Below, piece by piece: positions 12,873 to 16,656 of a stretch of DNA of 64,000 bases (position 1 is its first letter; the number at the start of each line of letters is the position of its first letter). The translations under genes and the position numbers were made by a program. The notes under the pieces were generated by a model that had not been told where the DNA came from, made no database searches, and worked only from the letters and a program-made list of their open reading frames with translations. This stretch comes from Pseudolabrys sp. (GTDB lineage Bacteria; Pseudomonadota; Alphaproteobacteria; Rhizobiales; Xanthobacteraceae). The DNA is taken from contig JAFIGS010000005.1 of NCBI GenBank assembly GCA_017849615.1, forward strand, positions 1 to 64,000. Direction: 5' to 3'.

Positions 12873-13075
12873 TCATTCTACAGCAAGGGCTTGCTGCTTC
12901 GCCTCAGGTTTTGCCGTATCTCTGCCTAAGATTTACTGCCTCGCAATTAAGCATCGTGACTACAAAATGACCATAGGCAGGAAAGGTCATTGCGGTGCAG
13001 CAGCTTGGCGACGAAGGGGCGGGATACGGCGACGCCGAATTGTCGGTCATATTCACGGCGGATAGTGTCGAAGGC

Positions 13076-14590
13076 ATGAACGAACTGCTCACACCCGACG
13101 AGATGGCGGAGGCGGACCGGCTCACCATCGCCGGCGGCACGCCCGGGCTAACGCTCATGGAGAACGCCGGCGCGGCCGTGGCCGATGCGACGGCGGCGCT
13201 GGTGCCGCAAGGGCGCGTCACGGTGGTCGCTGGGCCCGGCAACAACGGCGGCGACGGCTTTGTTGCCGCCCGGCTTTTGGCCGAGCGCGGTTTTGCGGTG
13301 ACGGTGGTTCTGGTCGGTGAGGCCGAGCGCCTCAAGGGCGATGCGCGCGCCGCGTTTGAGCGCTGGCGCGGACCGGTGGAAGCCGCGTCATCGCACGCGC
13401 TCAAGGATTGCGACGTCATCGTCGATGCGCTGTTCGGCGCCGGGCTCGACCGCGATGTCGAAGGCCTGCCGCGGGCGATGATCGACGCGATCAACGCGCG
13501 CGAGGTGCCGGTGATCGCCGTCGACCTGCCAAGCGGCATCAACGGCGCGACCGGCGCGGTGATGGGCGCGGCGGTCAGCGCGACGCAGAGCGTGACGTTT
13601 TTCCGCAAGAAGCCGGGCCACCTGCTGCTGCCGGGGCGGATCCATTGCGGACCCGTGGCGGTGGTCGATATCGGCATTCCCGCCGGCGTGCTCGAGACGG
13701 TGCGGCCGAAGACCGCCGTCAACGGGCCGGCGCTTTGGGCCCCGCATTTTCCGGTGCCGCGCATCGACGGCCACAAATACAGCCGCGGCCACGCCGCGGT
13801 GCTGTCGGGCGGGCTGTCGAGCACCGGCGCGGCCCGGCTCGCCGCACGCGGCGCGCTGCGGGCCGGGGCGGGGCTTGTGACCATCGCCTCGCCGCGCGAG
13901 GCGCTCGCCGTCAACGCCGCCGGCAACCTGGCGGTCATGGTCCGGCCGGTGGACGGCGCCCGGGAACTCGCCGCCTTCCTTGCCGACAAGCGCCGCAACG
14001 CCCTGGTGCTGGGGCCGGGCGGCGGTGTCGGGGCGGCGATGCGAGAAGAGGTGCTCACCGCGCTGGCGACGGAAGCTGCGGTCGTCCTCGATGCCGATGC
14101 GCTGACCAGTTTCGCCGGCGATCCGGAACCGTTGTTTGAGTCCATTCGGGCGCGCTCGGGAGACACCGTCCTGACGCCGCACGAGGGTGAATTCAAAAGA
14201 CTATTCATCGCTATAGATAGCGATGCTGAAGTTAATTCAAAACTTGAGGCGGCGCGGCAAGCGGCCCAGATCAGCGGCGCGGCTGTGCTGTTCAAGGGAC
14301 CGGACACCGTGGTCGCGCCGCCGGACGGACGGGCGTCCATCGCGGACAATGCGCCGCCTTATCTTGCCACCGCCGGAGCCGGAGACGTCCTCGCCGGGAT
14401 GATCGCCGGCCTGCTGGCGCAAGGGATGGCGGGTTTCGAGGCGGCCAGCGCCGCCGTCTGGCTGCACGGCGAGGCGGCGACCGCCTTCGGGCCCGGCCTG
14501 ATCGCCGAGGACCTTCCCGAGGCCCTGCCGGGCGTCTACCGGCGCCTGTTCACCGAACTCGGTACGCCGGCCGGCAAGCGCCCTTTATGA
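13076..14590 (+). CDS. nnr: Bifunctional NAD(P)H-hydrate epimerase/dehydratase
   Basis: This enzyme repairs NADHX and NADPHX, damaged hydrated cofactors: the N-terminal YjeF_N domain epimerises R to S, the C-terminal carbohydrate-kinase-like domain dehydrates using ADP or ATP. The 504-residue product shows LLTPDEMAEADRLTI and VVAGPGNNGGDGFVAARLL in the first half, and TVLTPHEGEFKRLF, KGPDTVVAPPDGR and TAGAGDVLAGMIAGLLAQG in the second. The ATG at 13076 matches the family start; a GTG at 12995 with a better ribosome-binding site would add 27 residues. It converges with the next gene with a 6-base overlap. Confidence 0.93.
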   Translation: MNELLTPDEMAEADRLTIAGGTPGLTLMENAGAAVADATAALVPQGRVTVVAGPGNNGGDGFVAARLLAERGFAVTVVLVGEAERLKGDARAAFERWRGPVEAASSHALKDCDVIVDALFGAGLDRDVEGLPRAMIDAINAREVPVIAVDLPSGINGATGAVMGAAVSATQSVTFFRKKPGHLLLPGRIHCGPVAVVDIGIPAGVLETVRPKTAVNGPALWAPHFPVPRIDGHKYSRGHAAVLSGGLSSTGAARLAARGALRAGAGLVTIASPREALAVNAAGNLAVMVRPVDGARELAAFLADKRRNALVLGPGGGVGAAMREEVLTALATEAAVVLDADALTSFAGDPEPLFESIRARSGDTVLTPHEGEFKRLFIAIDSDAEVNSKLEAARQAAQISGAAVLFKGPDTVVAPPDGRASIADNAPPYLATAGAGDVLAGMIAGLLAQGMAGFEAASAAVWLHGEAATAFGPGLIAEDLPEALPGVYRRLFTELGTPAGKRPL

Positions 14591-16264
14591 CCTCGGCTGA
14601 AACCAGCGCGGGGCGCTGGCATCCGACGCCATCGTAAGGCTCATGGCGAAAGCCAGCGTCGAGAACACGGCCAGTTCCTTAAGGTCCTGCAGGTCGTAGA
14701 TGTTGAACGAGAGGATCGGATCGTAAAGGAACAGGGCGGCGCAGGCGGCGCTGACCGCCGAAGCGATCACCGCGGAAAATTGCCCGAAGCGCCGCGCGAC
14801 AAACAGGATCGGGAGCAGATACGCGAAGATCAGGTGCGGGATCTCGAAGCGCAGATCGACCATGATCAGCATGGCGGTCGCGATCGCCACCAGGTTCAAG
14901 GTCACCGGCAATCCGATATCGGCCAATCCCAATCGCGCCGCCGCGGCCGCACCAGCCTTGCGGGCGATGCAAAGCCCGGCCTTCAGCGACGAAAAGGCGG
15001 CAGCCGGGAGCGCCCTGATCCGGTCCGCGGCCGTGGCACGCGGGCGGAGGATCGGAACGACATTTCCCTCGCGGCGGTTCTGGCCGCCGGCAAGGACCCC
15101 TACCAGCGCGTCGATTTGTTCGCGGGTATGCGCCGCGTTGAGCTGGATGCGCAGCCGCGCCTTGCGCAGCGGCACCGCCGGGAACTTGACGGCATCGACG
15201 TGAATGCGTTCGGCCTCGAGCCGCGCAGCAAAACGATCCGCTTCCGTTTCGTCGCCGACCATGATCGGCACGATCGGCGTCTGCGTCGAGACAAGCGAAT
15301 AGGGCAGTTCGCGCATGCGCTCGACGAAATAGCGCTGATTGTCCCACAGCTGCTGGCGACGCTGAGGTTCGTCCTGCACCGCGTCGATGGCCTCGCTGAC
15401 GGCGAAGGCCTGGTCCGGCGGCAAGGTCGAGGTGAAGCCGTAGGCGGCGCAGGACAGCCGCAGGATGTCGGCGATCGCCTTGTCGGTCGCGACGAAACCG
15501 CCGATGGCGCCGTAGGCCTTGCTGAGCGTGCCCATGTGAATGAGCCGCTCGCTCACGACGCCGAAATGCTCGCTGATGCCGCGGCCATTGGCGCCCAGCA
15601 CGCCGGTGCCGTGCGCGTCATCGACATAGACCATGGCGTCGTAGCGTTCGGCGAGGGCGATCAGGCCCGGCAGGTCGGCGATGTCGCCGTCCTGGCTGAA
15701 GACGCCGTCGGTGACGATGATCTTGTGGTCCTCGTCCGACTTCTTCAGCAGCGTTTCGAGGTGATCGAGATTGGCGTGCTTGAAGGTGTAACTCTCGGCG
15801 CCCGAGGCGCGGATGCCTTCGCGGATGCTGAGGTGATTGAACTGGTCGCTGAAATAGGCATAGCGCGCGGCGCTTTTGGCGCGGTAGCCGTAGATGCGGG
15901 CGTACTGGCCGGCCCGCGGCAGCGACGACAGCACGCCGAGATTGGTGAGGTAGCCCGTCGCGAACAGGACCGAGGCGTCCTTGTCCTTCATCGCCGCGAT
16001 CTTGGCTTCCAGCGCGTCGTAGATTTCGAGATTGCCGCCCAGCAGCCGTGACTCGCAGTTGCCGACGCCGAAGCGTTCGAGGCCGCGGCGCGCCGCGCCG
16101 ATCAGGCGCTTGCTGGAGGCCAGCGCCAGATAATTGTTGCTGCTGAAGGAGACCTGGTACTCGCCGTTGGCATAGAAGTGCGGGGCGGGGAGGCTGTCGA
16201 CGAACTTCAATTCATGCGGGGCGACTTTCGACGCCCAGTTGCTGATCTCGATCAGTTCGCGCAT
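14585..16264 (-). CDS. AONS-family PLP enzyme fused to DUF4118 membrane domain
   Basis: A 559-residue fusion. Residues 1-395 are a complete alpha-oxoamine synthase (the BioF, HemA, Kbl and serine palmitoyltransferase family): FSSNNYLALA, ESRLLGGN, VDDAHGTGVLG and the PLP-lysine motif GTLSKAYGAIGG (Lys249). After a linker of about 55 residues, residues 452-546 form four hydrophobic helices with the DUF4118 pattern of KdpD sensors (LLPILFVARRFGQFSAVIAS, YDLQDLKELAVFSTLA). The family condenses an amino acid with an acyl-CoA; the substrates here are unknown. The ATG at 16264 has GGGGA at usable spacing; another ATG lies 9 bases upstream. No pathway genes adjoin it. Confidence 0.85.
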   Translation of the reverse strand: MRELIEISNWASKVAPHELKFVDSLPAPHFYANGEYQVSFSSNNYLALASSKRLIGAARRGLERFGVGNCESRLLGGNLEIYDALEAKIAAMKDKDASVLFATGYLTNLGVLSSLPRAGQYARIYGYRAKSAARYAYFSDQFNHLSIREGIRASGAESYTFKHANLDHLETLLKKSDEDHKIIVTDGVFSQDGDIADLPGLIALAERYDAMVYVDDAHGTGVLGANGRGISEHFGVVSERLIHMGTLSKAYGAIGGFVATDKAIADILRLSCAAYGFTSTLPPDQAFAVSEAIDAVQDEPQRRQQLWDNQRYFVERMRELPYSLVSTQTPIVPIMVGDETEADRFAARLEAERIHVDAVKFPAVPLRKARLRIQLNAAHTREQIDALVGVLAGGQNRREGNVVPILRPRATAADRIRALPAAAFSSLKAGLCIARKAGAAAAARLGLADIGLPVTLNLVAIATAMLIMVDLRFEIPHLIFAYLLPILFVARRFGQFSAVIASAVSAACAALFLYDPILSFNIYDLQDLKELAVFSTLAFAMSLTMASDASAPRWFQPRS

Positions 16265-16571
16265 CGCGCACATTCCCCAGGTCGCATAAATCCACAGATG
16301 ATGTACGTAGCAGTTTGGCTGCGCACTTGCACTGATATTGAAGCGGGGGTGACCGCCGAATGTCGGCAGCGTTTACCGCCGGCGCGCCGGCCGGCCGTTT
16401 TGCGGCTGTATCGTCCCCCGTACCGCAACTGGACCGATTTGGCGTCGATTTGGCCCAAAACAAGCCTCTGGCGGCAACTTGGCGCGCCCGGTAGCCATGT
16501 CCGGCCTTGCCCTCGCCGGGGCGAGAGGTTATGTCCGCGCGTCGCGGGCGGACAAGATTTTGAGGCCCTTT

Positions 16572-16656
16572 GCGGGCGTGGCGGAATTGGTAGACGCGCC
16601 GGATTTAGGTTCCGGTGGCGAAAGTCGTGGGGGTTCGAGTCCCTCCGCCCGCACCA
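16572..16656 (+). tRNA. tRNA-Leu (UAG)
   Basis: The acceptor arms GCGGGCG (16572-16578) and CGCCCGC (16646-16652) pair fully; discriminator A and an encoded CCA follow. The anticodon stem CCGGA/TCCGG encloses TTTAGGT, giving anticodon TAG at 16606-16608 (codon CUA). A long variable arm, as in class II leucine tRNAs, and the T-arm GGGTTCGAGTCCC are present. tig begins 116 bases downstream; upstream to 16265 (about 300 bases) no gene is seen. Confidence 0.97.

Follow-up and report, generated by a model that had tools for sequence, protein, structure and literature searches.

Alpha-oxoamine synthases (AONS) make precursors of heme, biotin and sphingolipids, as well as some bacterial signals. In BioWF, a natural two-domain protein, the AONS is joined to BioW, a pimeloyl-CoA synthetase and not a membrane domain (PMC9544090); the serine palmitoyltransferase (SPT) of Sphingobacterium, which shares the AONS fold, is called membrane-associated in a cited title. 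On the membrane side, a described counterpart is KdpD, in which about 400 hydrophilic N-terminal residues precede four helices (PMC2440551). Here we describe a gene from Pseudolabrys sp. that joins a complete AONS to the four-helix DUF4118 domain known from KdpD; the AONS replaces the KdpD N-terminal part, and no histidine kinase follows DUF4118. The gene lies in a stretch of 64,000 nucleotides (assembly GCA_017849615.1, contig JAFIGS010000005.1, positions 1 to 64,000), hereafter the window. Literature keyword searches, with subscription journals mostly outside their coverage, turned up no published pairing of an AONS with a sensor-type membrane domain.

One gene encodes an AONS enzyme and a DUF4118 membrane domain

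The features of the locus are as follows.

14585..16264, minus strand: AONS-DUF4118 fusion gene, 559 amino acids plus stop (open reading frame, Pfam, start alignment, second genome)
15095..16156, minus strand: AONS fold-type I pyridoxal phosphate (PLP) enzyme domain, residues 37-390 (Pfam PF00155)
14903..15094, minus strand: linker, residues 391-454, poorly conserved, with a helix at 412-445 predicted at low confidence
14630..14902, minus strand: DUF4118 four-helix membrane domain, residues 455-545 (Pfam PF13493)
15518..15520, minus strand: codon of the PLP lysine, Lys249 in GTLSKAYG (alignment)
16037..16060, minus strand: pocket loop N69-C70-E71-S72-R73-L74-L75-G76 (alignment to SPT)
15863..15907, minus strand: subfamily insertion, residues 120-134, 15 residues (alignment)
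16572..16656, plus strand: tRNA-Leu (anticodon tag), flanking the site that holds the fusion gene

The reading frame is open from an ATG at 16264 to a stop codon at 14585-14587, with a further in-frame ATG at 16273; the plus strand of 14585..16264 is interrupted by stop codons, which places the gene on the minus strand. The start codon falls in the same alignment column in 25 of 27 relatives (L030-L056); in L040, where it precedes the match by two codons, it still marks the same residue, and L055 is cut by a contig end. Pfam identifies PF00155 over residues 37-390 (E 6.6e-44, 151 bits against a cut-off of 19.7) and PF13493 over residues 455-545 (E 1.4e-12, 47.8 bits against a gathering score of 28.4). 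The AONS fold is present, the catalytic set is intact (His144, Ser190, Asp215, His218, Thr246, Lys249 and Arg372), and the protein contains the motifs GTLSKAYGAIGG (Lys249) and DDAHGTGVLG.

A second fused copy is L030 (uncultured Rhizobiales bin-0224), with 569 amino acids in one frame (PF00155 1.2e-45, DUF4118 3.4e-12). Its genome is G794, a congener of the window, where a 500-base stretch of the locus matches at the same contig coordinates. An uninterrupted fusion in another genome makes an artefact of assembly or a frameshift very unlikely. The original prediction, made from the window's sequence, had held that a complete AONS and a DUF4118 domain share one frame with no stop in the linker; the Pfam matches, the 559-residue frame, the intact linker and the one-frame fusion in the second genome bear it out. 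Thus, a single unbroken gene joining a complete AONS to DUF4118 is confirmed.

The AONS half forms a clade of its own

The fusion protein scored below the cut-off of every named NCBIfam model examined. The best-scoring was BioF TIGR00858 (366.6 bits against 426.45), followed by TIGR01825 for BioF/Kbl family PLP-dependent acyltransferases (353.6 against 535.4). Scores were lower for the Kbl models NF005394 and TIGR01822 (335.3 against 460 and 276.9 against 493), HemA TIGR01821 (247.8 against 338.55, the host having a HemA of its own), the SPT models NF047599, NF047600 and NF047603 (251.1, 290.8 and 201.1 against 500, 640 and 670) and CqsA/LqsA NF005526 (171.3 against 428). The KdpD model NF007793 gave 21.2 bits against 1123, and the protein has no kinase domain. 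Six unfused relatives (L033, L036, L037, L039, L042, L054) likewise stayed below the cut-off of the NCBIfam models at E 1e-70. In a tree of 74 rows, where long branches elsewhere mean that the deep order is not to be read, the 15 rows of the subfamily occupy one side of a branch with support of 100/100, and the BioF, Kbl, HemA, SPT and CqsA rows all fall outside it. The window and L030 proteins are sisters (100/96), next to L036 from Bradyrhizobium and L040. By sequence, the AONS half is a separate clade covered by none of the named NCBIfam models tested.

Among solved structures, ThAOS (8s1y) is closest in sequence to the AONS half. The fold list is led by Kbl 1fc4 and 8s1y, and structures of BioF, SPT and HemA score within 1 Z unit of them. 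The Kbl rows align without the insertion or the acidic residue 71 described below. CqsA, LqsA and JqsA share the AONS fold, and in some relatives of the fusion the gene adjoins a two-component system; two JqsA-type proteins are 24-25% identical to the subfamily enzyme and remote from it in the tree. Janthinobacterium S3T4 and Duganella radicis (two of ten genomes searched) each carry a JqsA-type gene over the CqsA/LqsA cut-off in addition to a subfamily enzyme. Thus, the JqsA-type protein and the subfamily enzyme are not the same thing, as both are present in the same two genomes.

The resemblance to BioF extends to the fold, the catalytic residues and the best NCBIfam score, and a biotin-pathway BioF with an incidental tail would account for these. 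That reading is barely credible: the score is below 426.45, the host genome (G000) gave no match to bioB over its cut-off, and in the second fused genome bioB is present, as is a BioF-like gene distinct from the fusion (426.1 bits, cut-off 426.45). The separate clade, the insertion, the acidic pocket residue and the membrane tail also distinguish the fusion from BioF. A biotin role was rejected on the BioF score and on the host genome, in which bioB and bioF both fail to reach the curated cut-offs; biotin synthesis is unlikely. In the genus, bioB over the cut-off is missing in G000, G004, G033, G029 and G027, and present in the congener G003 and in the genome of L030; some members of the genus may be biotin auxotrophs.

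An insertion and an acidic pocket residue mark the clade

Two features distinguish the subfamily from other AONS in an alignment of 32 subfamily and 94 other rows, which omits duplicates (L106-L115, L133, L134, L137-L146, L176, which matches L030, and L179, which matches L040) as well as the partial genes L097, L100, L101 and L102. Residue 71 is Glu in 30 and Asp in 2 of the 32 subfamily rows, and it is acidic in 0/94 others. Arg123 and Gly126, which lie in the insertion, are likewise found in 32/32, where 94/94 others have gaps; the insertion is 15 residues long in the 15 rows inspected. The loop around residue 71 reads N69-[CS]70-[ED]71-S72-R73-L74-L75-G76, with Ser for Gly76 in one row. Of the catalytic residues, His144, Ser190, Asp215, His218, Thr246 and Lys249 are found in 32/32 members and Arg372 in 31/32, the last row being truncated.

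C70-E71-S72 align to Ala79-Gly80-Ser81 of Sphingobacterium SPT, so that an acid takes the place of SPT Gly80. In that enzyme (PMC10196870), Ala79 interacts with the substrate side chain via water, the Gly80 amide reaches the serine hydroxyl via water, and Ser81 interacts with the substrate carboxyl group via waters. A fixed acid at this amino-acid contact position suggests that the substrate may be an amino acid outside the usual Gly/Ala/Ser set.

The DUF4118 tail resembles KdpD in sequence and appears to be conserved

When the last 126 residues were searched against the PDB, KdpD 2ksf (E 9e-5) was the sole chain matched at E up to 1. Two structure models place helices at 452-473, 478-493, 495-513 and 525-546, with low confidence in this region (predicted confidence, pLDDT, about 35-53 in the full model; mean 71.4 in a model of the tail alone). 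Hydropathy exceeds 1.5 in three stretches (445-476, 471-491 and 493-518), and the fourth helix is below this threshold. The loop between transmembrane helices TM2 and TM3 is basic, and the TM1-TM2 and TM3-TM4 loops are acidic; read by the positive-inside rule, these charges would fit an N-in topology.

Between the window and L030, 291/391 residues are identical in the AONS part, 19/55 aligned residues in the linker (over 392-451) and 51/94 in DUF4118. The corresponding dN/dS values, which are rough given a dS of 0.8-1.2, are 0.23, 0.67 and 0.33. This pattern suggests that the tail has been kept under purifying selection. A third congener, G028, has a DUF4118 match of 58-59% identity whose frame runs off a 3,983-base contig. 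The genome of the unfused L040 (G436) encodes a stand-alone DUF4118 protein of 137 amino acids, on a different contig from its AONS. In a small FastTree tree, of which support values were not read and in which two mistranslated G028 rows (L147, L157) have no meaningful placement, this protein groups with the fused domains and not with the DUF4118 of four longer proteins. That one domain occurs as a protein of its own and also fused to this enzyme is at most a hint of a functional link.

The G028 fragment (L157:3728-3982) is about 58% identical to the fused domain. The stand-alone protein of 137 amino acids (L148:1441-1854) is encoded next to genes that we take to be formate-dehydrogenase-like and TRAP-transporter-like. 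The fused L030 gene is also near a DctM TRAP gene.

Unfused relatives are patchily distributed and, in two lineages, adjoin two-component genes

Six 8-residue patterns, matched exactly against 84,980 species genomes and thus liable to miss remoter members, identified 76 loci: 27 (L030-L056) whose AONS half is 55-74% identical, L101 and L102, which are end pieces, and 47 AONS at about 40% identity or less. Hosts of the subfamily are Rhizobiales, Zoogloea-type bacteria, Sulfuricella, Oxalobacteraceae, Verrucomicrobiota and Planctomycetota. Its distribution is patchy: six of 391 genomes of the family match at E 1e-85 (own included, two of them fused), among 397 of the order the window's own genome alone is near, the nine further ones at E 1e-63 being at most 41% identical, and two of 398 of the phylum match at E 1e-100 (own included). 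Plasmids gave 359 records at E 1e-40, all below 60% identity and the best at 40% among the 15 best rows, and hence no near relative. Elsewhere in the same order, an AONS-like stretch (G045:C6:1415360-1416451) lies in a 2716-amino-acid open frame, perhaps a megasynthase.

A two-component gene lies within 500 bp at 13/29 subfamily loci and 0/47 other AONS loci, and within 3 kb at 14/29 and 1/47. These counts used nine query kinases and regulators drawn from subfamily loci and exclude L177, L178 and L180; at least 1.5 kb was present on both sides in 25/29 subfamily and 34/47 other loci, and the 13 positives stem from two lineages (9 and 4) and are not independent events. Eight Massilia-type loci have the order AONS, regulator, kinase, all codirectional, with the regulator 11-86 bp downstream; in Duganella radicis the order is regulator, kinase, AONS, and the pair resembles the Massilia-type one (63% and 49% identity). 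At four Zoogloea-type loci an unrelated hybrid kinase is encoded 81 bp upstream of the AONS. Domain scans of one or two loci of each kind revealed OmpR-type regulators and HAMP kinases, and, in the Zoogloea-type hybrid kinase, dCache (below cut-off), PAS, HisKA, HATPase and REC. Within the stretches examined, no two-component gene was found near either fused locus, in L035, L159, L036, L040 or the Planctomycetota locus L054, or near the genes of Rugamonas (L041, L050, L056), Janthinobacterium (L052, L053) and Verrucomicrobiota (L042, L044, L048). At L037 of Sulfuricella the nearest one is 754 bp away on the other strand. The linkage in unfused relatives gives some indirect support to a signalling idea. 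A methyl-accepting chemotaxis protein is encoded upstream of the L030 fusion, on the other strand (L030:3606-5417).

What the fusion protein may do

The reading we favour, to which we give about an even chance, is that of a membrane-anchored AONS, from a clade outside the named models, making an amphiphilic alpha-aminoketone at the inner membrane. The AONS half would be cytoplasmic and dimeric and would condense an acyl thioester with an amino acid, with loss of CO2; the side chain of that amino acid, read by Glu71, would be polar or cationic. DUF4118, with no kinase behind it, would anchor the enzyme on the inner membrane and hand over or sense the product or a membrane condition, and the gene may have been gained as single-gene cargo. 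Of the original prediction, the fusion architecture stands, and the separate AONS clade, the insertion and the acidic pocket residue had been overlooked; a product that is lipid-like or delivered at the membrane, or activity that answers to a membrane cue, would fit the same architecture. We infer the substrate, the product, the localisation and any signalling role of the fusion; signalling is possible and ranks below simple membrane delivery.

Several observations weigh against this membrane-anchored synthase. Sure fused copies number two, both in one genus. The full model has low block means (47-67) over residues 11-50 and 61-80, including the pocket loop, so that the reading of Glu71 comes from the sequence alignment to SPT by itself; the residue could alternatively pair with Arg123 or have a structural role. 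No lipid or pathway gene cluster common to subfamily loci was noticed among their neighbours, 19 of whose proteins were domain-scanned. The gene carries no foreign mark in base composition (GC3, the GC content at third codon positions, is 0.86 against 0.83-0.91 in its neighbours), which lends no support to horizontal gain. Foldseek returned no match for the tail model at E 0.001, and confidence in the DUF4118 model is low; as the tail model is weak, this null result says nothing against the KdpD relation.

The AONS-regulator-kinase order at the Massilia-type loci, the like pair in Duganella radicis and the hybrid kinase at the Zoogloea-type loci would all be expected of a new AONS-type signal system, in which an autoinducer is read by the adjoining two-component system and the fused DUF4118 serves as a receptor or release module; JqsA, a known homologue of CqsA and LqsA, is linked to jqsS and jqsR (PMC3566124). 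Such a system is rather unlikely, since the linkage is confined to two lineages, many loci including both fused ones have no two-component gene in the stretch examined, the Sulfuricella gene is distant and on the other strand, the clade is far from CqsA, and the fused protein has no kinase output. The broader proposal that the clade produces a novel aminoketone signal derived from an amino acid, with synthase and membrane receptor or release module united in this genus as a single-gene, membrane-bound device independent of CqsA, LqsA and LuxI, is a long shot. DUF4118 could also be a regulatory input that senses K+ or membrane state as in KdpD and alters AONS activity; KdpD is the closest PDB sequence to the tail, its four helices also come after a hydrophilic region of about 400 residues, and the domain is conserved. 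The linker, poorly conserved at 35%, is more what one would expect of a tether than of a coupler that transmits a signal, and we regard regulatory input as unlikely.

A sphingoid- or other lipid-base synthase of the SPT kind, tethered because its substrate or product is a lipid, would agree with the AONS chemistry, with the gene for an AMP-binding enzyme upstream in Bradyrhizobium L036 and with the membrane association ascribed to the Sphingobacterium enzyme. It is decidedly unlikely: the three SPT models score far below cut-off, the single SPT row lies outside the clade, and SPT, ACP and ACS genes co-occur in Rhodobacteria according to PMC9386255, whereas no ACP gene was noticed beside the subfamily, although no search aimed at ACP was made. 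That the fusion arose by chance and the tail has no role is most improbable; its confinement to one genus and the lack of the tail in 29 of the 31 members whose C-terminus can be seen (L056 is cut by a contig edge) speak for it, and the retention of the tail in two species at different places with a dN/dS of 0.33, together with the truncated DUF4118 match in the third congener, speaks against it. What appears to be new here is an AONS clade with its own insertion and acidic pocket residue, fused to DUF4118 in one genus. The fusion and the kinase linkage are direct, testable leads to the site of product action.

The fusion gene occupies a variable site

The fusion gene ends tail to tail with nnr (NAD(P)H-hydrate epimerase/dehydratase, 12995-14590) and is oriented away from tRNA-Leu and tig (trigger factor). 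We examined the gap between nnr and tRNA-Leu/tig in 12 congeners chosen among those with both genes located, and found an AONS in 0/12. The gap is short in three (210-389 bp); in others it holds what we take, by motif, to be a multicopper-oxidase-like gene (6/12) or a small secreted-protein-like gene (4/12), with both in one congener. Across positions 14590-16571 of the window and L160-L171, the gap is a variable cargo site in the genus. In the L030 genome the nnr-to-tig gap is about 375 bp and the fusion is on another contig; the fused gene seems to have moved.

Two further neighbourhoods of unfused relatives were recorded. At the Verrucomicrobiota loci L042, L044 and L048 the subfamily gene comes after genes that, by likeness, are presumably those of tricarboxylic acid (TCA) cycle-like enzymes. 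In Rugamonas (L041:7345-7902), the AONS gene adjoins one for a small exported protein whose end we take, by motif, to be PEP-CTERM-like.

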